Source: Chloroflexota bacterium (GTDB taxonomy: Bacteria > Chloroflexota > Anaerolineae > Anaerolineales > UBA4823). From it: a stretch of DNA of 64,000 nt. The first letter of the stretch is position 1. The number at the start of each line of letters is the position of its first letter. The translations under genes and the position numbers were made by a program. The stretch lies in NCBI GenBank assembly GCA_029557965.1, contig JAKQIM010000048.1:1-64000 (forward strand), given 5' to 3'. Positions 1-10,366 of the stretch are shown here, piece after piece. The notes under the pieces are model-generated. The model saw only the letters and a program-made list of their open reading frames with translations, searched no databases and was not told the origin of the DNA.

Positions 1-2742
1 TACCACCGCATCCAGCGCTTCATCGACCGGCGTTTCTATCGCGAGCAGGTAGATTTCCGCCAGGCCTTCACCAGCTTCTCCAAGCAGGTGCGCACGATCA
101 TCGACCTGCCCGAGCTGCTGGATGTGCTGGTGGAGCGCACCACGGGGCTGCTGCACATTGCCCACGGGGCCGTCTTCTTATATACACCGCAAGACCACAA
201 GCTGATCCTGGCAGAGCAACGCAACATCGAGCTGCCCACTGGCACCGACCTGGAGTTGGACTGGTCGGATGAACAGGTGTTGAACAAAGGCAGCGTGGTC
301 AGCCGCATGCGCCACCCCACCTTCCCCATGCTGGTGCCGTTGATGGCCCCGCAGAAGATGGATTCGCTGGCGAATAAGGGTGCATCCCCCAGCGCCGCGG
401 CCCCGGCCCTATTAGGGGTATTGGCGTTGGGCCCCCAGCATTCAGGGCTGAGTTACTCGCGCGAGAACCGCGACCTGCTGCTTGGCCTGGCTGACCAGGC
501 CGGCACCGCCATTTACGTTGCCATGCTGATGCAAGAAAAAGAGGCCGAAGTCTTGCGCCGCGAAGAAGCCGAGCATAACCTCGATCTTCACCGCAGCTCT
601 CCCTTGGGCCAGGCCGAAGCCCGCGCCCAGGTGCTCACTGCCAACCCGGCGGGCGCTATTGCCGCCCTGCACGACCTGGCCCAGGCCGCCGGGGGCGATG
701 CAGATGCCGCCCAAATGCTGGCGAACCTGCCCAACGCCCTCAATAATCTGGGCCAGTCTGCCCTGGCCTCCCTGGCCGAAAGCTATCATTACCTCTACAG
801 CAGCCAATATACCACCGAACTGCTGCCGGTCGGCTTGCGCAATCTCATCGCACGCCTCATCGACCCCGAAGCCAGCCGCTGGGAAAACGCCGAACAGGCC
901 CTATCCATCTACCAGCGCTGCCACATGGCACTTGAAGCCAACTCGATCCCCCAGATCTTGGAACTGCCCGATGACCCGGTGCCCGCCCCGCCCTGCCTGA
1001 GCAGCCTGGCGCAGGCCCTGCTGGGTTTCCAATCTGTGGTCGCCCTCCTGCACGCTTACGAACGCGTTGATTCGCCCCAAGACCGCCTGGCTTACCTGGC
1101 CTCGGCCGTTGAACGCCTGCGCCACGTAGAACGCAGCGCCCGCGCCGAGTTGGGCAGCGCTGACCGCGCCATTGCCCAGAGCATCGCCGAGAGCTGGCTG
1201 GCAATTGTTACCGGCACCATCAGCGAGCTGCAAGCCCGCTCTCGCCTGGTATTTCAACTGCTCACCCGCCACACCTGGCAGGTTGATGTGGTCTCGCTGG
1301 CGCTCAATGTACGCAACGAGGGGCGCGGCGCAGCCCTCAATGTGCGCGTATCCCTGGCCCCTGACCCTGCCTACACCTTGCTAGACAGCAGCGCCACCGT
1401 TGAACGCCTGGCCTATGGCGAAGAAACCCAGGTCACCCTGCGCATCCGCCCGCATCTAGAGGCCGGCAAAGACCATTTCCGTGCCCGCTTTGTCATCCTC
1501 TATACCGACCCGCGCGGCCCCGACCAGGTGGAGAACTATGCCGATATGATCCACCTCCTGGCGGCCGAAAGCGATTACCAGTTCATTTCCAACCCCTATG
1601 TTGTGGGCACCCCTTTGCAGACCGGCTCGCCGCTCTTCTTTGGCCGGGAAGATATCATTGCCTTCATCACAGAAAATCTCGCCGCCCTGCACCGCAACAA
1701 CCTGGTGCTGATCGGCCAGCGCCGCACCGGCAAAACCTCTTTGCTCAAGCAGATGCCGGCCCACCTGGGCGATGAATACTTGCCCGTTTACCTGGATGGG
1801 CAAGCCCTGGGGCTTGATCCTGGCCTGCCCAACTTCTTCCTCAGCCTGGCAACCGAGATCAGCTTTGCCCTCGAAGACCGCGGCTTCGAGATCGAGCCGC
1901 CTGCCCTGCAAGATTTCACTGCCAGCCCCGCGGGAACCTTTGAGCATGCCTTCTTAGACCGTGTACGCCAGGCCATTGGCGAGCGCCACTTGCTGCTCAT
2001 GCTGGATGAATTCGAAGAGTTAGAAACAGCCGTGCGCCGCGGCGACCTGGAGCCTTCTATATTTGGCTTCTTGCGCCACATCATCCAGCACACACCCAAC
2101 CTGAGCGTCATCTTCTGCGGCACCCACCGCCTGGAAGAACTGGCTGCCGATTATTGGAATGTGCTTTTCAATATCAGCATCTACCGTCACATTGCCTTCT
2201 TAGATCAAACCGAAGGCCTGCGCCTGGTGCAAGAGCCGGTGGCCGCTTACGGCATGCACTACGACGACCTGGCCCTGGATAAGATCTGGCGCATCACCGC
2301 CGGGCACCCCTATTTTCTGCAACTCTTGTGCCACAGCCTCGTAAACCATCATAACAAGGTCCAGCGCAGCTACATGACCATTGCCGATGTCAACACCGCC
2401 CTGGATGAGATCCTGGCTTCTGGCGAGGCGCATTTTGTATACTTATGGGCTGAATCATCTCCCCTCGAGCGGGTAACGCTCACCGCCATGACACGCCTGA
2501 TGCCCCTGACCGGCCAGATCACCCCAGCCCAGATTGCTGATTATCTCGAAGAGCGCGGGGTGAGTTTCGAACGCCAGAATATTGCCGAGGGCCTGCACCG
2601 CCTGGCCCTGCGTGATATACTGACCGCCAACACCTCAGATGACAGCATGGGTGAAACCTACCGCTGGAAGCTGGGCCTCTTGGGTTTGTGGGTCGAGAAA
2701 TATAAATCCATGAGCCGCGTCATTGACGAGATGAGAAAATAA
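1..2742 (+). CDS. GAF-domain STAND ATPase sensor, 5' end outside window
   Basis: The reading frame is open from the first base, so the start lies upstream; 913 residues are visible. The opening stretch (RRFYREQVDFRQAF and following) is the linker and start of a GAF domain, roughly residues 10-150, of the kind that follows a membrane sensor. A long helical region follows, then a CARDB-like beta-sandwich at about 405-500. The C-terminal half is a STAND-type AAA ATPase: Walker A GQRRTGKT at 572-579 and Walker B LLLMLDE at 664-670, followed by helical sensor segments. It probably converts a GAF-detected signal into an ATP-dependent conformational change. The stop is one base before the next ATG, so the two genes are almost certainly cotranscribed. 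Its NPYV...FFGRE entry motif recurs at the start of the next protein. The signal sensed is unknown. Confidence 0.8.
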   Translation, partial: YHRIQRFIDRRFYREQVDFRQAFTSFSKQVRTIIDLPELLDVLVERTTGLLHIAHGAVFLYTPQDHKLILAEQRNIELPTGTDLELDWSDEQVLNKGSVVSRMRHPTFPMLVPLMAPQKMDSLANKGASPSAAAPALLGVLALGPQHSGLSYSRENRDLLLGLADQAGTAIYVAMLMQEKEAEVLRREEAEHNLDLHRSSPLGQAEARAQVLTANPAGAIAALHDLAQAAGGDADAAQMLANLPNALNNLGQSALASLAESYHYLYSSQYTTELLPVGLRNLIARLIDPEASRWENAEQALSIYQRCHMALEANSIPQILELPDDPVPAPPCLSSLAQALLGFQSVVALLHAYERVDSPQDRLAYLASAVERLRHVERSARAELGSADRAIAQSIAESWLAIVTGTISELQARSRLVFQLLTRHTWQVDVVSLALNVRNEGRGAALNVRVSLAPDPAYTLLDSSATVERLAYGEETQVTLRIRPHLEAGKDHFRARFVILYTDPRGPDQVENYADMIHLLAAESDYQFISNPYVVGTPLQTGSPLFFGREDIIAFITENLAALHRNNLVLIGQRRTGKTSLLKQMPAHLGDEYLPVYLDGQALGLDPGLPNFFLSLATEISFALEDRGFEIEPPALQDFTASPAGTFEHAFLDRVRQAIGERHLLLMLDEFEELETAVRRGDLEPSIFGFLRHIIQHTPNLSVIFCGTHRLEELAADYWNVLFNISIYRHIAFLDQTEGLRLVQEPVAAYGMHYDDLALDKIWRITAGHPYFLQLLCHSLVNHHNKVQRSYMTIADVNTALDEILASGEAHFVYLWAESSPLERVTLTAMTRLMPLTGQITPAQIADYLEERGVSFERQNIAEGLHRLALRDILTANTSDDSMGETYRWKLGLLGLWVEKYKSMSRVIDEMRK

Positions 2743-2743
2743 C

Positions 2744-4708
2744 ATGTCTAACCCTTATGTCTCACGCGGGCCGGTGCGCGACCCGGCCATGTTCTTCGGG
2801 AGAGAAAACGAACTCCGTGAAATTGCCGCCTTTTTGCGCGGCAACCAATCTGTCTCGATCGTTGGGCCGCGCAAGATCGGCAAGACTTCGCTCCTCTTCC
2901 ACTTGATGCGTCCACCCACCTTCACCAGCCTGGGGCTGGACGAGAACTTTTTGTTCGTTTACCTGGATTGCGAGGTTTTGGGCGATGGAAGCCACGAAGA
3001 GATCTTTGGCCAGTTTGCGGTCGAGATCGCCGAAGCCCTGCACGAGCGCGGGCAAGCTCCAGAGCCCGCCCTGGACGAAGCCGCCGACAAGCCGGGCCGC
3101 CTGGCATTTGAGCGCGCCATTCGCCGCCTGAACCAGCGCGGCCTGCGGATCATCCTCTTATTGGATGAATTTGAACGCCTCAGCACCAACCAAAACCTGG
3201 ATGTCAATTTTTTCAATGCGCTGCGCTCTGCCGCCGGGCGTTACCAACTGGCCTATCTCACCGCTTCGGCCCGCCCCCTCATTCAATTGACCTACTCGGG
3301 CAGATCTCAAGAGATCCTTTCCAGCCCCTTCTTCAACATCTTTGCCCCACTTTACCTGGGGCTGCTCTCAGAAGCCGATGCCCGCCAGTTGATCCGCCAG
3401 CCCAGCCAGGCTGCCGGGATAACCTTTAGCCCTGAGCTGGAGGATTTTATTTACTGCCTGGTTGGCGGCCAGCCATTGGCCCTGCAGGTAGCGTGCTTCT
3501 ACAGCATGGATCATCCCAACGACCCCGATGCTGTTGAACAAGCTGCCTGCCAAGAGTTGGCCGCCCACTTCCAATACTATTGGCATAACCTGACCCCCGC
3601 CGAGCAGGCTATCCTGCGCCAGGTTGACGAGATTGCAGGACGCGCCGCTTCAGATACCACCCTGCGCGGCCTGCTGCGCGATCTGACACAGAAATCGCTC
3701 CTGATCGCCGATGCCAACACCTACCGCTACCCCGGCCGGGCCTGGGCGGCTTTCGTGGCGGCCCAACAGCCCACCAGCCCCACCGGCGAACGCCTGTCTT
3801 CTACCACCATGCTCATCGCCGGCACCCAGGTGGGGCCTTATGAAGTGCTGGAGCCGATCGGGCGAGGCGGCATGTCAGAGGTCTACAAAGGCCGCCACAC
3901 CCGCCTGGACCGCAGCGTAGCCATCAAGATCCTGCCGGCCAGCCTGGCGGCTGAAGCCGATTTCCGCACCCGCTTCGAGCGCGAAGCACGGGCAGTGGCA
4001 TCTTTGCGCCATCCCAATATCGTTCAAGTTTTCGATTTCGGTGATATCAGCGGCACCTACTACATGGTGATGGAATACATTGCCGGGAAAGACCTCTCTA
4101 CCATCATTCGCGAGAGCGGGCGCATGCCCATTGAGCAAATTGCCCTGGTGATGTTGGAGGTCAGCTCAGCCCTGGATTACGCCCACGACCTGGGCCTGGT
4201 ACACCGCGATGTCAAACCGTCCAACATCTTGCTCCAGCCCCTGGCAGAGCGCGCCGCCCACAGCGGCGACCGCACCGAAACCTGGATCAAGGCCGAACAA
4301 AAACTCAAACCCGGCCTGCCATACCATGCCATCCTGACCGATTTTGGCATTGCCAAGATGCTGGGCGGCGACACTGCCGCCACCAAAACCGGCTTGATGA
4401 TGGGCACCCTCAACTACATGGCCCCCGAGCAAATCCGCTCAGCCGGTGAAGTGGATGGCCGCGCCGACACTTACGCCCTGGGCGTGGTGGCCTACCAATT
4501 GCTCACCGGTCAACTGCCCTTCGTAGCAGATAATCCCGGAGCGATGATGTTGGCCCATCTCCAACTGCCGGCTCCCGATCCACGTGAGCTGGCCCCCGAA
4601 ACCCCATCCAAGATCGCCCGCGCCATCTTACGCGCCCTGGCCAAAGACCCCCAAGAACGTTTCGATACCAGCAGTGCCTTTGCCGCCGAATTCAACCTTG
4701 CGAGCTGA
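2744..4708 (+). CDS. STAND ATPase fused to a Ser/Thr protein kinase
   Basis: This 654-residue cytoplasmic protein joins two modules. Residues 1-350 are an AAA/STAND ATPase with an FFGRE entry motif, Walker A GPRKIGKT at 41-48 and Walker B ILLLDE at 137-142. Residues 363-650 are a Hanks-type kinase: glycine loop IGRGGMSEVY, catalytic Lys395 in AIKIL, HRDVKPSN starting at 487 and DFG at 533-535, so it should be active. About 30 extra polar residues lie between the HRD loop and DFG, which is unusual for bacterial kinases. No membrane segment is visible. The gene starts one base after the stop of the GAF-STAND gene, suggesting the two ATPases work as a pair, perhaps by co-oligomerising to control the kinase; that role is inferred. 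Confidence 0.85.
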   Translation: MSNPYVSRGPVRDPAMFFGRENELREIAAFLRGNQSVSIVGPRKIGKTSLLFHLMRPPTFTSLGLDENFLFVYLDCEVLGDGSHEEIFGQFAVEIAEALHERGQAPEPALDEAADKPGRLAFERAIRRLNQRGLRIILLLDEFERLSTNQNLDVNFFNALRSAAGRYQLAYLTASARPLIQLTYSGRSQEILSSPFFNIFAPLYLGLLSEADARQLIRQPSQAAGITFSPELEDFIYCLVGGQPLALQVACFYSMDHPNDPDAVEQAACQELAAHFQYYWHNLTPAEQAILRQVDEIAGRAASDTTLRGLLRDLTQKSLLIADANTYRYPGRAWAAFVAAQQPTSPTGERLSSTTMLIAGTQVGPYEVLEPIGRGGMSEVYKGRHTRLDRSVAIKILPASLAAEADFRTRFEREARAVASLRHPNIVQVFDFGDISGTYYMVMEYIAGKDLSTIIRESGRMPIEQIALVMLEVSSALDYAHDLGLVHRDVKPSNILLQPLAERAAHSGDRTETWIKAEQKLKPGLPYHAILTDFGIAKMLGGDTAATKTGLMMGTLNYMAPEQIRSAGEVDGRADTYALGVVAYQLLTGQLPFVADNPGAMMLAHLQLPAPDPRELAPETPSKIARAILRALAKDPQERFDTSSAFAAEFNLAS

Positions 4709-4742
4709 ACCAGCCCGCCGAAGAACCTGGAGCAACCATCCT

Positions 4743-6146
4743 ATGCACCTCTCACCAAAGACTTTCCCCCCTCGCTTGATCCTTGCCGCCTGCCTGGCCC
4801 TATCCCTGGCCCTGTTTGGCGCCGTCGGTGCGGCCCTGGCGTACGAGTTTTCTGAAGACGGTTACATCGCGGCCGGCAAAGTCATTGACGACGACGTTTT
4901 CGTTTCAGCAGATTCCGTCACCGTAGATGGCACCATCAATGGCATCTTGTTTGCCAACGGCAGCAACATCACCATCAATGGCACAATCAACGGCGACCTG
5001 TTTGCCAACGGCAACTCCGTCACCATCAACGGCCCGGTGAATGGGAACCTGGTGATCAGCGGGGCAACCCTCAAGCTTGCCAGCGCAGTAGAGGGCAGCG
5101 TTTTCTCAGGCGGCCAAACACTGATCATTGCCCCTGGCGCAAGCATTGGCCGCAACCTGTACTTCGGCGGCTTCAGCCTGGATGTTCAACCCGGCGCCAG
5201 CATAGCCAGAGACCTGGCAACCGGCTCTTACCAGGTGATGCTTGGCGGGCAGGTGGGTCGCAATATCGATGCCTCTGTCATCGCTTTTGAGCTATCTGGC
5301 AAAGTGGGAGGCAACCTGAACCTGGATGTTGAGCCCCCGGGCAAGGAAGACGATGTTTCTATCTTCGAATACTTCAATTTCCCTGGCATGCCTGAGACCT
5401 TTTTGCCTGCCGGCCTGCGGGTTGCCTCGCAGGCGAAAATTGACGGTGAGCTGAAATACGTCAGCCCGGTTGACCAGGCTGCCGCTATCCAGGCTGTGCC
5501 GGGCGGCGGGATCGTTTATACCTACCGCCCTGCCCAAGGTACTGAAAAAGCCGACAAGCCCCCCGTCTCAGTCCAGATCGGCAACTGGTTTTTGTCCCGC
5601 ATCCGCGAGCTGGTGACACTAAGCGCCATCGGTGCGCTGGTGGTCGTCCTGATGCCGAAGCTTCTGCCCCAGGGCGTCCAGCAATTGCGCAGCCAGCCCT
5701 GGGCATCTTTAGGCAAAGGCCTGCTGGTGTTGATCGTGGGCCTGGTGGGGATATTCGTTGCCTTCCTGGTAGTGCTCACCGTGGGCATCCTCCTGGGCAT
5801 CGTCACCCTGGGCGGGCTCAAAGACACGGTCTTTGGATTCGGGTTCTCTAGTATTGGATTGTTCTCGGCTGTTTTCTGGCTGATGATCAATTACGGCAGT
5901 AAACTGGTGGTAGCCTCGCTCTTAGGGAATTGGCTCTTCAAGCGTATGGGCCCCGCCTTCAGCGGGCATGCTTTCTGGCCGTTGTTGGCCGGGATTGTGA
6001 GTTATGTGATCTTACGCGGCATTCCCATATTGGGGATTTTGTTTGGCGCCGCGGCCACCCTCTTGGGGTTGGGGGCCGCCTGGTTGGCTTTGCTTGCTTG
6101 GCGCAAAGGAGCTGCGCCGCAGGTCATCCCCAGCACAGCTTCATAA
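4743..6146 (+). CDS. Bactofilin-like polymer-forming protein with C-terminal membrane domain
   Basis: I use the ATG at 4743, because it begins a clear signal or anchor segment (MHLSPKTF then a run of Ala/Leu); the frame is open further upstream but overlaps the kinase gene. The 467-residue product has an N-terminal hydrophobic segment, then about 170 residues of short repeats such as GTINGILFANGSNITI and GPVNGNLVISG, typical of the beta-helix of bactofilin/polymer-forming proteins. The last 160 residues form about four or five hydrophobic helices. It probably assembles outside or at the membrane and helps organise the envelope. It follows the kinase gene by 34 bases and could be a downstream partner or substrate; that link is only positional. 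Confidence 0.75.
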   Translation: MHLSPKTFPPRLILAACLALSLALFGAVGAALAYEFSEDGYIAAGKVIDDDVFVSADSVTVDGTINGILFANGSNITINGTINGDLFANGNSVTINGPVNGNLVISGATLKLASAVEGSVFSGGQTLIIAPGASIGRNLYFGGFSLDVQPGASIARDLATGSYQVMLGGQVGRNIDASVIAFELSGKVGGNLNLDVEPPGKEDDVSIFEYFNFPGMPETFLPAGLRVASQAKIDGELKYVSPVDQAAAIQAVPGGGIVYTYRPAQGTEKADKPPVSVQIGNWFLSRIRELVTLSAIGALVVVLMPKLLPQGVQQLRSQPWASLGKGLLVLIVGLVGIFVAFLVVLTVGILLGIVTLGGLKDTVFGFGFSSIGLFSAVFWLMINYGSKLVVASLLGNWLFKRMGPAFSGHAFWPLLAGIVSYVILRGIPILGILFGAAATLLGLGAAWLALLAWRKGAAPQVIPSTAS

Positions 6147-6176
6147 CAAACGACCCTATCTGTGGGTTAAAAGCGT

Positions 6177-6216
6177 CCATCGCCCAGCGTCTTTCCCCTC
6201 AGGCGCTGGGCGATGG
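6177..6216 (+). terminator. Hairpin after the bactofilin-like gene
   Basis: A perfect 13-bp inverted repeat, CCATCGCCCAGCG at 6177-6189 and its complement at 6204-6216, is separated by a 14-base loop. It lies 30 bases after the stop codon at 6146. There is only a short ATTT after it, so it may act as a weak intrinsic terminator or protect the transcript end. Confidence 0.5.
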
Positions 6217-6422
6217 ATTTCCTACCTTCCCCCTCTTGTCACTGCGACACGCTTTTGCCCCCCTTCGAATTGCCGCCCTTGCACATCGCAGAAACCGAGA
6301 AGAACTGCAGCCAGCATTCCCCCTCAGGAAAAAGACTGACCGCCCGGTTGGCTTGGTGACCAGGTAGACCCATCGCTTGATAACCTGGTATGATAGATTA
6401 TATACAACTATCCACACCGCAT

Positions 6423-6441
6423 CGTCACCGCAAGCGTCACC
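6423..6441 (+). promoter_or_regulatory. CGTCACC direct repeat pair 1
   Basis: Two exact heptamers CGTCACC (6423-6429 and 6435-6441) are 12 bases apart start to start. The same pair recurs 133 bases downstream. It lies about 17 bases beyond a possible promoter (TTGATA/TATACA at 6377-6406), so a protein bound here could block that promoter. Confidence 0.45.
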
Positions 6442-6555
6442 GTAAACCACCTGTTTCAGCAAGGAGTCGCCCCCTTGACCACGATAACCACCAGGCTCAA
6501 AACCATCACTTGCTGATCTGACACTACAAATTATATTCATTCCCCTATACCATAT

Positions 6556-6574
6556 CGTCACCGTAAACGTCACC
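6556..6574 (+). promoter_or_regulatory. CGTCACC direct repeat pair 2, next to the SARP promoter
   Basis: Two exact CGTCACC heptamers (6556-6562, 6568-6574) with a 12-base period end five bases before the -35 box of the SARP gene. SARP and OmpR-type winged-helix proteins are known to bind direct heptamer repeats next to -35 boxes, so this is a candidate self-activation site for the protein encoded at 6626. The target assignment is inference. Confidence 0.5.
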
Positions 6575-6579
6575 ACAGA

Positions 6580-6608
6580 TTGCCAGTTTGGGCGAGTTGG
6601 CGTAAAAT
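6580..6608 (+). promoter_or_regulatory. Promoter of the SARP-like regulator
   Basis: TTGCCA (6580-6585), a 17-base spacer and TAAAAT (6603-6608) form a near-consensus sigma-70-type promoter. Transcription would begin near 6615, leaving only about 11 bases before the ATG at 6626 and no clear Shine-Dalgarno sequence, so the message may be nearly leaderless. Confidence 0.55.
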
Positions 6609-6625
6609 ATAAACTCGGTGACCTT

Positions 6626-9600
6626 ATGCCCACATTAGAAATCAACTTATTCGGCACGCCTTCCCTGCGCCTGGATGGACAACCGGTTCACGCCCGCACC
6701 GCCAAGGCTATTCCGCTCTTGGCTTACCTGCTGATGAACCCCGGGTGCCACATGCGTTCTACCCTTGCCACCCTGCTGTGGAGCGATGCAGAGCGTCCAC
6801 GCGCCTTTGCCTCCTTGCGCACCACCACCTGGAGGCTAAAAGATGCCGGGCTTGGCCCCTGGTTGGATGTGCAACACGAACAGGTTGGCTTCCGAGAAGG
6901 GCCTCCGGTGCACCTGGATGTGCGCCAGTTTCTCGGTTACCTGGATGAATGCCGCCGACACGGTCACCCACCCCAGGCCGTGTGCACCGATTGCCTGCCC
7001 CTTCTCAGCGCTGCCGCCGAGCTGTACCGCGGCAATTTTATGCAGGGATTAAGCCTGCGGGGGGCGGTTGTGTTTGACGATTGGCAGACTTCCCAGGCCG
7101 AGCTGCTGCGCAACCAGGCTTCTGGCGTGCTAGAACGCCTGGTCAGCGGCTATCAGAAACAAAATGACCTGACCCAGGCCATCCATTATGCCCGGCAGTG
7201 GTTGACGATTGACCACACGAACGAAGAGACTCACCGCCAGCTCATGACTCTGTACGCCAGCACGGGGCAGCGGCAGTCTGCCATGAACCAATACCAGGAA
7301 TGTGTTCGCCTGCTCAAAGCCGGCGGGTTGAGCCCCCAGGCAGAGACCACTTCCATTTACCAACAAATCTTAGGCGGGCCATGGCGTTCCGCCGCCAGCG
7401 CTGATTCTGCCCCCAGGCTAAAAAGCCCCATCATCTTGTGCGCCGATGTCGAAAATTCGGCTGCTCTATGGGACCAGTACAGCCAAGAGATGACCAAAAT
7501 TTACGAAAAAGTGTCTGCCAGCATCAAAGACTTTGCCCAACAATACGGCGGCCGCGTGCTGAGTTTGATGGATGATTACTTCATCATGTTTTTCGAAAGC
7601 GGGTCACCTTTGCCGGCTGCCATCGCTTTACAAAAGAATGCCCGGCACCCAATCGAGAAAAAAGTGGCCCCGCTGAAGGTGCGCGTGGCAATCCATGCCG
7701 CCGACAGCTTCAAGCCCAGCATTGATAGCAATGCCGGCAGCATCCACTTTGCCAAGCGCCTGCTCTCAGCCGGCCGGGGCGGGCATGTTTTGCTCAGCGC
7801 CCAGGCATCAGAGGCGCTCGACCTGCCCATCAACGCCAGGCTGTACGATCATGGATTTAACACCCTCAAAGACCTCGGTGAGCCGATCCATATCTTTAGT
7901 CTTCAGCACCCCGATCTGCTGGGAGAGCAGCGTCTTTCCTTGCAATCCCTGGCCACTTACTATCATAACCTGCCCACTTACGCCACCCCATTCATCGGCC
8001 GCGAGGAAGAGTTGGCCGACCTGGCACAATTGCTCTCGCAAGAAAACTGCCGCCTGCTGACCCTCACCGGCCCCGGGGGCATTGGCAAGACGCGCCTGGC
8101 AGTCCAAAGCGCGGCCCAATTGATCGAACGCTTTCCCGATGGGGTTGCCTTTATCTCCCTATCCACCACCCCAACCTCCAACCAGATCCTATCTACCCTG
8201 GCTGAGGTACTGCGCTTTAATTTCTACCAGCCCGAAGACCCCGCCCGCCAACTGCAAGACTTCCTGCGCTCCAGGCATATGCTGCTCATCATGGATAATT
8301 TCGAGCACCTGGTAGACGGCTCGGCGTTACTTTCAGACCTGCTCAACCATGCCCCCAGGCTCAAGATCCTGGTCACGTCGCGCGAGTGCCTGCACTTGCC
8401 CGAAGAATGCCTGTACGACGTACGGGCCATGGGCATACCACCCGCCTCCGGCGCCTCTGAACTGGAAAACTACAGCGCCGTCAAACTCTTCTTGCAAAAT
8501 GCCCGCCGTGTTCATCCAAGCTTTCATCCGAGCGAAACCGATTGGCACAGCATTGCCGAGATCTGCCAACGCGTTGAGGGCCTGCCCATGGCATTAGAAT
8601 TGGCCTCGGGCTGGGTGCGCACCCTCACCTGTGCTGAGATTTCAGACCAGATCAAACGACAGAGTTTCGAATTCCTGGATGGAAACAGATCTGATCGTCC
8701 GGCCCGCCGCCGCAGCCTAAGAGCCGCCTTTGATTATTCGTGGAACTTGCTGTCAGAAGAGGGCCGCCGTACCCTGCGCAGGTTGTCTGTCTTTCGCGGC
8801 GGATTCAGCCTGGAGGCCGCCCAGGCCGTGGCCGCCACCACCCCGGCTCAGTTAGCGGGCATGGTCGACCGCTCGCTGCTGCGGTATACCAGTGGGCGCT
8901 ACGAGATCAACGAAGCCCTGCGGCACTTTGCCCATCAAAAACTGGAAGAAGCCCCCGAAGACTACACATCCACCGAACGCCTGCACTGTGAATACTATTC
9001 CTACCGCTTCATCGAACAAGCCAACAAGCTGCTCTCCCGATCGCATATGCAAGCCATGCAAGAGATCTTCGTGGACACCGAAAACTTGCGTACCGCCAAA
9101 GATTGCGCCTTAGAACACAAATGCTGGGATCTCATCGGGATGGGGATCAACGCATCCTTTGTGTTCCTTGAACTCTCTGGCCGCGCAAAAGAAGGATATG
9201 AAAGTTTCAAACGCATGCTGGACGTTGCGCTCGTGGAATCTGATGCAATGGAAAGCAAATGGTTCCCCTGGCTGGTCATGGCCACGGGCTGGTTCGCCTT
9301 CCAAATCGGCCAACATGCAGAAGGGCTGGAGGATCTGAACAAGAGCCTCGAAATCCTCAGAGCGCGGGGGGATGAAGAAGGCACCGCTTACAACCTGGCC
9401 TTGCTGGCCAGCTACTACCTGAGCCTGAGTTCTTTCGAAGATGCCGGCCGCTGCCTGCAGGAGAGCCTGGCCATCTACAGCCGCATCAGCCTGCCCAACG
9501 AACGCCTATCGCATGCCCGTCAGCATTTCACCCTCTACACTGCCGGCAAATATTATCTCCAGACCCAGCAATATGCCCTGGCCGAACAGCATGCCCAGGT

Positions 9601-10366
9601 CGCACTGTCCAGCAGTGAGCAGATGGGCGCCCGCTGGGGTGAGGGCCGGATTTTGAATCTCCTTGCCCAGATCGCCATGTTCCAGCATAAGCTGCCGGAG
9701 GCAGAGAACATCTGGCGCCAGGCACAGCAGATCGCCAATGAAATGGGGGACCGGCGCAGCATGGCCTCCATTTACAGCGGCTTAGGGCAAGTTTACGAAT
9801 GGCAAGGCCAGATCGAGAAAGCCATTGAAACAGAACTGCTTGTGCTTCAAATTTACCGCCAGCTAGGCGATGACCGCTTATCGGCCATCGCCATGAACAA
9901 CCTGGCTTATTTTCACCTGCTGCTAAAAGAGCCAGATTACCCCCAGGCAACGCAATTCTACCGCGACAGCCTGGATTTATTCCGGCTGATACAAGATCAA
10001 CACGGCCTGCTTTTCACCAATTACGACCTGGGGCAGGCGTATATCAAGATGGGCAACTTATACCAGGCGCTTACCTGCTGCCAGCAAGCCCTGAGCCTGG
10101 CACAAGGGCTGGGTGCGCCCAACTTAATGCTCTATGCGCTGCACGGTTTTGCCAGCCTGGCAGCCCAGCGCGGCGAAACCGAACGCGCCCTGGAATTGTG
10201 CGGGCTGCTGCTCACTCATCCCCAGACTCAAGACGATACCCGCCAGCGCACCCAGAGCCTGTTGGAAGAGCTGAACGCCGCCGCCAACCCAAACCTGGCC
10301 CAGGCTGCATTCCAGCGCGGGCAAGCCCTCCAACTGGAACCCACCGTCGCCGAATTTTTGGGCTAG
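6626..10366 (+). CDS. AfsR/SARP-like regulator: OmpR HTH, BTAD, cyclase-like, NB-ARC, TPR
   Basis: This 1246-residue regulator begins MPTLEINLFGTPSLRLDG, the usual start of a SARP winged helix (1-95), followed by a bacterial transcriptional activation (BTAD) domain to about 245. Residues 265-430 resemble a class III nucleotidyl cyclase: ILCADVENSAALW and GGRVLSLMDDYF keep candidate metal-binding aspartates, so weak activity cannot be excluded. An NB-ARC ATPase follows, with Walker A GPGGIGKT at 482-489, then TPR-like helical repeats from about 830 to the end. The design is that of ATP-driven transcription activators such as AfsR or MalT, with an inserted cyclase-like sensor. It stands alone behind its own promoter; its targets are unknown, but the CGTCACC repeats upstream are a plausible site. 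Confidence 0.85.
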   Translation: MPTLEINLFGTPSLRLDGQPVHARTAKAIPLLAYLLMNPGCHMRSTLATLLWSDAERPRAFASLRTTTWRLKDAGLGPWLDVQHEQVGFREGPPVHLDVRQFLGYLDECRRHGHPPQAVCTDCLPLLSAAAELYRGNFMQGLSLRGAVVFDDWQTSQAELLRNQASGVLERLVSGYQKQNDLTQAIHYARQWLTIDHTNEETHRQLMTLYASTGQRQSAMNQYQECVRLLKAGGLSPQAETTSIYQQILGGPWRSAASADSAPRLKSPIILCADVENSAALWDQYSQEMTKIYEKVSASIKDFAQQYGGRVLSLMDDYFIMFFESGSPLPAAIALQKNARHPIEKKVAPLKVRVAIHAADSFKPSIDSNAGSIHFAKRLLSAGRGGHVLLSAQASEALDLPINARLYDHGFNTLKDLGEPIHIFSLQHPDLLGEQRLSLQSLATYYHNLPTYATPFIGREEELADLAQLLSQENCRLLTLTGPGGIGKTRLAVQSAAQLIERFPDGVAFISLSTTPTSNQILSTLAEVLRFNFYQPEDPARQLQDFLRSRHMLLIMDNFEHLVDGSALLSDLLNHAPRLKILVTSRECLHLPEECLYDVRAMGIPPASGASELENYSAVKLFLQNARRVHPSFHPSETDWHSIAEICQRVEGLPMALELASGWVRTLTCAEISDQIKRQSFEFLDGNRSDRPARRRSLRAAFDYSWNLLSEEGRRTLRRLSVFRGGFSLEAAQAVAATTPAQLAGMVDRSLLRYTSGRYEINEALRHFAHQKLEEAPEDYTSTERLHCEYYSYRFIEQANKLLSRSHMQAMQEIFVDTENLRTAKDCALEHKCWDLIGMGINASFVFLELSGRAKEGYESFKRMLDVALVESDAMESKWFPWLVMATGWFAFQIGQHAEGLEDLNKSLEILRARGDEEGTAYNLALLASYYLSLSSFEDAGRCLQESLAIYSRISLPNERLSHARQHFTLYTAGKYYLQTQQYALAEQHAQVALSSSEQMGARWGEGRILNLLAQIAMFQHKLPEAENIWRQAQQIANEMGDRRSMASIYSGLGQVYEWQGQIEKAIETELLVLQIYRQLGDDRLSAIAMNNLAYFHLLLKEPDYPQATQFYRDSLDLFRLIQDQHGLLFTNYDLGQAYIKMGNLYQALTCCQQALSLAQGLGAPNLMLYALHGFASLAAQRGETERALELCGLLLTHPQTQDDTRQRTQSLLEELNAAANPNLAQAAFQRGQALQLEPTVAEFLG

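Follow-up and report, generated by a model that had tools for sequence, protein, structure and literature searches.

Ahead of the gene for a SARP-type regulator of a Chloroflexota bacterium there are two tandem pairs of the heptamer CGTCACC, and these repeated words are very probably landing sites of the regulator itself. Autoregulation of the regulator gene is likely, because the box letters of related genes covary with the recognition helix of the adjacent gene product, which supports self-recognition. We consider it probable that the gene's own product binds the heptamers through its SARP domain, as two tandem operators, with positive autoregulation as the likeliest role of the proximal pair. 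The features discussed below lie in the window, by which we mean the whole analysed stretch of 64,000 nucleotides:

6175-6218, + strand: strong hairpin without a T run, 3' of the upstream gene (-37.8 kcal/mol)
6423-6441, + strand: distal tandem box CGTCACC-N5-CGTCACC (exact match, period 12)
6556-6574, + strand: proximal tandem box CGTCACC-N5-CGTCACC (exact match, period 12)
6580-6585, + strand: -35-like hexamer TTGCCA (consensus scan; scores 10/12 together with the -10-like hexamer, which alone is no proof of function)
6603-6608, + strand: -10-like hexamer TAAAAT (consensus scan, spacer 17)
6616-6623, + strand: CGGTGACC, a near-inverted copy of the box ahead of the ATG (inverted repeat search; the inverted repeat extends to 6628)
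6626-10366, + strand: SARP-type regulator gene, P0001, 1246 aa (ORF and Pfam matches)
6794-6862, + strand: helix of the winged-helix domain with the recognition-helix residues (residues 57-79; model and covariation); T66, T67, W69 and R70 on it are the equivalents of AfsR 88, 89, 91 and 92 (helix motif matching)
6992-7372, + strand: BTAD domain (PF03704, 6.3e-18)
7415-7906, + strand: class III cyclase-like domain with diverged motifs (alignment and fold)
8003-8620, + strand: NB-ARC/STAND ATPase domain (PF00931, 3e-11)
9644-10201, + strand: TPR region (PF13424 and TPR_MalT matches)

The regulator and its known relatives

On its BTAD, NB-ARC and TPR matches and its modelled fold the 1246-residue gene product is a SARP-type regulator, as the initial annotation had proposed. 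The BTAD domain is found directly behind the winged helix, at residues 123-249 (PF03704, 66 bits against a cut-off of 22.1). In the model of residues 1-250 (pLDDT 95) the N-terminal part is an OmpR-type winged helix, and the six best PDB fold matches are AfsR (8K60, 8HVR) and EmbR (2FEZ, 2FF4). As a sequence route to the SARPs of the PDB, phmmer gave TPR chains only, and it was the fold that supplied the link. Residues ~264-427 are modelled as a class III cyclase domain (pLDDT 83), with Ma1120 of Mycobacterium avium as the best match. A Pfam search of this stretch gave no match, and the link comes from alignment and fold. Cyclase activity of the regulator is doubtful, because the motifs, judged by eye, are diverged compared with a paralogue of the same assembly, and the domain is possibly a sensor derived from a decayed cyclase.

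Behind the SARP domain the protein has a STAND/NB-ARC ATPase and TPRs like the large, AfsR-like SARPs, and the combination of SARP domain, cyclase fold and NB-ARC is that of the PimR class (SARP-LAL). A LuxR-type domain is absent among the 14 Pfam matches. The AfsR equivalog model NCBIfam NF053617 scored 86.5 bits against a cut-off of 1430, so the regulator was not filed as AfsR.

AfsR of Streptomyces coelicolor, as it is described, likewise has a winged helix and BTAD fold followed by a STAND ATPase and TPRs, and both proteins have T and R at two base-contacting helix positions (PMC10936776, PMC10972967). A cyclase-like domain, which our regulator has, does not figure in that description of AfsR. 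The PimR/SARP-LAL architecture, in the account of PMC3367932, resembles the regulator in its SARP domain, its cyclase- and LAL-like half and the lack of a LuxR helix-turn-helix. EmbR of Mycobacterium tuberculosis (2FEZ, 2FF4) shares the winged helix and BTAD fold, and is described with a C-terminal FHA domain (PMC10936776) in place of the cyclase-like, ATPase and TPR parts.

Heptamer pairs and promoter of the regulator gene

CGTCACC is found exactly at 6423-6429, 6435-6441, 6556-6562 and 6568-6574, which gives two pairs of period 12 with starts 133 bases apart, and so the initial annotation was accurate on the coordinates. The pairs sit in a 479-base gap (6147-6625) between the end of the upstream gene at 6146 and the ATG of the regulator at 6626. 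The two inner copies, at 6435 and 6556, share a longer CGTCACCGTAAAC. Dinucleotide-preserving shuffling of the gap produced any exact period-12 pair of 7-mers in 60 out of 3,000 shuffles, a single heptamer forming two period-12 pairs in 0 out of 3,000, and two such pairs with any period of 8-30 allowed in 1 out of 3,000. The single heptamer has 20 matches in the window against 6 expected by shuffling. It is the pairing and not the heptamer itself that is unusual, because 16 of these 20 matches fall outside the gap.

The hairpin at 6175-6218 was equalled by 0 of 200 shuffles. A terminator scan found none, and no Rfam elements were found in 6100-6700. On the same strand as the regulator, positions 88-6146 code for a GAF+STAND protein, a STAND+protein kinase protein and a bactofilin-like protein. 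The frames of the latter two overlap by more than 100 bases as predicted, and therefore one start is probably wrong.

The proximal pair ends at 6574, with five bases to the -35-like hexamer and 28 to the -10-like one, which agrees with the initial annotation of TTGCCA-17-TAAAAT as the promoter behind this pair. GGTGA within CGGTGACC may act as a ribosome-binding site. It is well known that SARPs bind heptamers with spacers of 4-15 bases over the -35 (PMC10972967), and at the level of sequence the window has two such heptameric direct repeats, each with a spacer of 5. The proximal pair is placed just upstream of an intact -35-like hexamer, whereas classical SARP sites are described as overlapping the -35 (PMC10972967, PMC10936776), usually with 8 bp between the 3' repeat and the -10. 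An exception has been reported for PimR (PMC3367932).

The box of AfsR in the afsS promoter is similar to that of the window in having direct repeats that start with CGT. In the cited descriptions (PMC10936776, PMC10972967) it has a period of 11, covers the -35 at 8 bp from the -10 and belongs to a target gene, while the window has a period of 12, an intact -35-like hexamer downstream of the box, a position before the regulator's own gene and a second pair. The PimR site, as reported, consists of three CGGCAAG heptamers and a weaker second site and is, as in the window, not over the -35 (PMC3367932). Its spacers measure 4 (and 3) bases against 5 in the window, and 55 bases separate it from the -35 downstream of it, where the window has five. 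PimR has the closest known architecture; it acts on pimM and reportedly does not regulate itself (PMC3367932), which counts against our best explanation.

In the mechanism we propose, each pair would take two SARP protomers side by side, one per heptamer, as described for AfsR (PMC10936776). From the proximal pair, at about -59 to -41 from the inferred start, the protein would contact the polymerase upstream of the -35, similar to what has been proposed for PimR (PMC3367932). This contact would be gated by the cyclase-like, ATPase and TPR part, and upon a trigger RNA polymerase would be aided at the regulator's own promoter. The distal pair probably adds occupancy, and a cooperative role is a guess; the distance of 133 bp is no whole number of turns. 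The initial annotation had also suggested that the distal pair controls a second start. This part of its autoregulation reading was dropped: no promoter-like site follows the distal pair, and the other one in the scan, 6365-6394, precedes it. Binding at the gene's own promoter region, the other part, is the best reading, as across relatives the box letters follow each gene's own recognition helix.

It is rather unlikely that the regulator bound to its own boxes represses itself, with the near-inverted copy at the start codon possibly a further operator. Such negative feedback is conceivable because the promoter hexamers are near consensus: with 10/12 the promoter may need no help. The inverted near-copy of the box at 6616-6628 and the promoter-like site ahead of the distal pair would also fit with it. 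The boxes, on the other hand, leave the -35 and -10 uncovered, and positive autoregulation is favoured because the published SARPs are activators in the accounts cited (PMC10972967, PMC10936776, PMC3367932).

Boxes and recognition helices of SARP-type genes

Six proteins of the own assembly (G000) have BTAD matches, of which four are N-terminal SARP genes. All four carry their own pair, namely CGTCAC (window), CGTTTC, CGTTCC and CGTCAA. In the other two BTAD proteins (contigs C48 and C49; L216, L217) the SARP-like part is not N-terminal but preceded by a long TPR stretch.

Exact CGTCACC-N5-CGTCACC, for which the initial annotation had suggested a genome search before other genes, occurs five times in the own assembly (56% complete): two are the pairs described here, and the other three are inside open frames of 456-809 codons. 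Six pairs with one mismatch are all inside open frames of at least 275 codons. For the tandem CGTCAC core, two of six matches are the ones here and four are in open frames of 456-809 codons. A relative of 34% identity (L038, genome G003) has its boxes placed likewise ahead of the -35 and -10: three CGTCAC at steps of 11 and 12 are followed by five bases and TTGCTT-17-TAAAAT, and in the window CGTCAC is followed by six bases and TTGCCA-17-TAAAAT. In the G003 genome (4.5 Mb, 97% complete) tandem CGTCAC is found only at the promoter of this relative (2 out of 2 overlapping matches). The best-scoring full-length relative (37%, genome G005) has no exact pair upstream, and the single tandem CGTCAC match of its genome is inside a 530-codon frame. 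The reversed control pattern gave 2 matches in G000, 2 in G003 and 1 in G005. For CGTCAC it is the location and not the count that is evidence, because the reversed control is as frequent in G003 and G005. The cyclase motifs of L038 have diverged further than those of the window's regulator, and a SARP-less paralogue (L013) in the own assembly retains the usual ones.

We collected 227 upstream regions of SARP-type genes, among the matches listed, from genomes of the same class and other genomes. One search provided 137 matches that were used, among those listed and with some near contig ends left out, and 80 of the 411 found in a second search for relatives were kept. Chloroflexota MAGs made up most of the second source of upstream regions, next to some from Rubrobacter and other Actinomycetota. 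After removal of near-identical regions, regions with fewer than 120 bases upstream and runs of N, 192 remained, and 177 after clustering of the DNA-binding domain at 90% and removal of gappy rows. Out of these 177, 82 have an exact CG pair, 66 of them with CGT.

Exact 6-mer direct repeats within 250 bases upstream have a period of 11 in 70 and of 12 in 68 of the 192 regions. Period 23 (11 plus 12) is next with 28, and the remaining periods from 7 to 40 give 4-21. In a control region 450-700 bases upstream (117 cases) period 11 is found in 6 and period 12 in 16, and periods divisible by three are elevated, as coding DNA would be expected to show. The first set of 91 upstream regions had period 11 in 30 and period 12 in 31, against 4-5 in shuffles. 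CG-anchored exact 6/6 pairs at period 11 or 12 were detected in 91 of the 192 regions (73 with CGT), compared with 2-9 (0-4 with CGT) at seven control period sets. The CG anchor was chosen after earlier data, so the unanchored period spectra are the unbiased test. In this count, which is limited to exact repeats, the other 101 regions have no pair, that of the G005 relative among them, and this speaks against our best explanation.

The box cores are mostly CGTNNC, with CGTTAC (22), CGTTGC (9), CGTTTC (6), CGTCCC (6), CGTCAC (5) and others. Among the 82 non-redundant cases 52 have two copies, 23 have three and 7 have four, and steps of 11 and 12 are mixed. The distance from box to -10 across the box-bearing genes is broad, with a small group at 27-29 bases, and a fixed distance was rejected as a family rule. 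A remote second cluster was also rejected as a general feature: the 400 bases before the 66 box-bearing genes contain 13 extra forward copies against 7.5 expected, and two of these 13 are the window's own second pair.

For the 66 non-redundant CGT cases we compared the box letters with the AfsR-equivalent residues of the adjacent gene, the AfsR numbering being transferred by eye from the helix motif without aligning AfsR. At residue 88 (T66 in the window) R goes with T at box position 4 in 34 of 45 cases, and Q, T or N go with C in 15 of 17. For residue 91 (window W69), position 5 is A in 22 of 30 cases with S, T in 11 of 17 with W and G in 6 of 7 with V. Residue 89 is matched to position 6, with T and C in 35 of 39 and A and A in 7 of 11. 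Out of 98 columns, residue 88 is the top one for position 4 and residue 89 for position 6, and position 5 has residue 47 in first and residue 91 in second place; none of these ranks was reached in any of 1,000 permutations. Gene pairs with 40-50% domain identity, which are non-independent, have the same letters at positions 4-5 in 97 of 235 cases if residues 88 and 91 are both shared, in 33 of 422 if one is and in 3 of 180 if neither is. Overall relatedness does not explain the match of helix and box, because agreement at this identity tracks the shared residues 88 and 91.

When positions 4-6 were predicted by leave-one-out from genes below 60% identity only, the six contacts that the AfsR paper lists for the helix (PMC10936776) gave the correct answer in 36% of cases. 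The remainder of the domain gave it in 18%, and shuffled labels averaged 10%. Neither 500 shuffles nor 500 random column sets contained one equally good as the helix contacts. In a scan of six-column windows the 12 best start at columns 62-67, 69 and 20-24, which correspond to the recognition helix and to the beginning of helix 1, two regions that contact DNA in AfsR. Columns 24 and 25 joined the interface set after the data had been seen, and the six-contact test is limited to the contacts of the AfsR paper. The window's own box agrees in part. The C at position 4 is what T66 would predict and the C at position 6 what T67 would predict, but W69 alone predicts T and not A at position 5. W at 91 is combined with R at 92 in just one further case, the G003 relative, whose box also has A at position 5.

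We are inclined to believe, with slightly less assurance than for the operators themselves, that Chloroflexota SARPs obey a recognition code. Two or more boxes CGT-xyz, at steps of 11 or 12 bp, would precede each regulator gene. The AfsR-equivalent residues 88, 91 and 89/92, together with the beginning of helix 1, would set x, y and z, and the operator, and then the regulon, would be predictable from the protein. Covariation approaches reportedly already exist for other families, e.g. MerR. In the open-licence literature we found no description of SARP operators in Chloroflexota and, in the parts of it that our sources cover, none of a SARP recognition code.

It is improbable that the gene is the target of another regulator and not of its own product, with the boxes read for instance by a paralogue or by a response regulator of the OmpR/PhoB type. 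Response regulators also use direct heptamer repeats, one box is reported to be contested by AfsR and PhoP (PMC10972967), and in some large genomes CGTTAC pairs are found at several promoters. Against this, changes in the letters go along with changes in the DNA-contacting residues of the adjacent product, windows elsewhere in the domain are poorer predictors, and the four SARP genes of the assembly have four different boxes.

Neighbouring genes and box pairs elsewhere

In 51 of the 66 box-bearing genes the longest upstream ORF is on the opposite strand; 11 are co-directional, 2 are without one and 2 are too short. The boxes of many relatives may thus serve the divergent gene too, and it is reported that PimR acts on the divergent pimM and not on itself (PMC3367932). 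We nevertheless give very little credence to the explanation that the boxes bind the regulator mainly for control of a neighbouring or divergent gene in this family, autoregulation being incidental. In the window the gene upstream of the regulator runs in its direction and stops at 6146, short of the hairpin, which leaves the boxes without a competing divergent gene. Chance repeats without function are least credible of all, as the over-represented heptamer and the three exact pairs inside ORFs, which would fit with them, stand against the absence of two pairs from 3,000 shuffles, the 11/12 peak over 192 upstream regions and the G003 relative with boxes at the same place.

CGTTAC pairs outnumber the reversed pattern by 23 to 6 in genome G360 and by 16 to 4 in G335, but fall short of it in G401 (7 to 12) and G039 (2 to 8). 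Part of the CGTTAC pairs away from SARP genes are chance, because the reversed pattern outnumbers them in G401 and G039. A small conserved CGTTAC regulon is possible. CGTTGC pairs away from SARP genes are mostly in long ORFs, and here the reversed control is identical to the pattern and uninformative. Altogether 60 CGTTAC/CGTTGC loci were classified, 5 of which were without the pattern within 40 bases of the expected place.

Tandem CGTTAC, reversed to the gene, was observed 34-55 bases before a GAF/SpoIIE-phosphatase/HATPase gene at L323 (G039), L324 (G170), L325 (G161) and L326 (G267). In three of these genomes, G039, G161 and G267, the contig also carries a SARP gene whose box is the same. 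In four genomes a small membrane-protein-like ORF of 151-164 aa is divergent to a CGTTAC-type SARP gene across the box (L313:983-1456, L314:1569-2021, L315:902-1381 and L317:1567-2058), with DUF6789 found weakly in one of the four.

The published SARPs, in the accounts cited here, have been studied as activators of Streptomyces antibiotic clusters, and Chloroflexota genomes hold many SARPs whose targets have not been identified. Should every such gene have an operator of its own, with letters that follow the helix, targets would be predictable from sequence in uncultured bacteria. If the code is true, winged-helix specificity would also become directly testable in vitro by swapping a few residues and letters.
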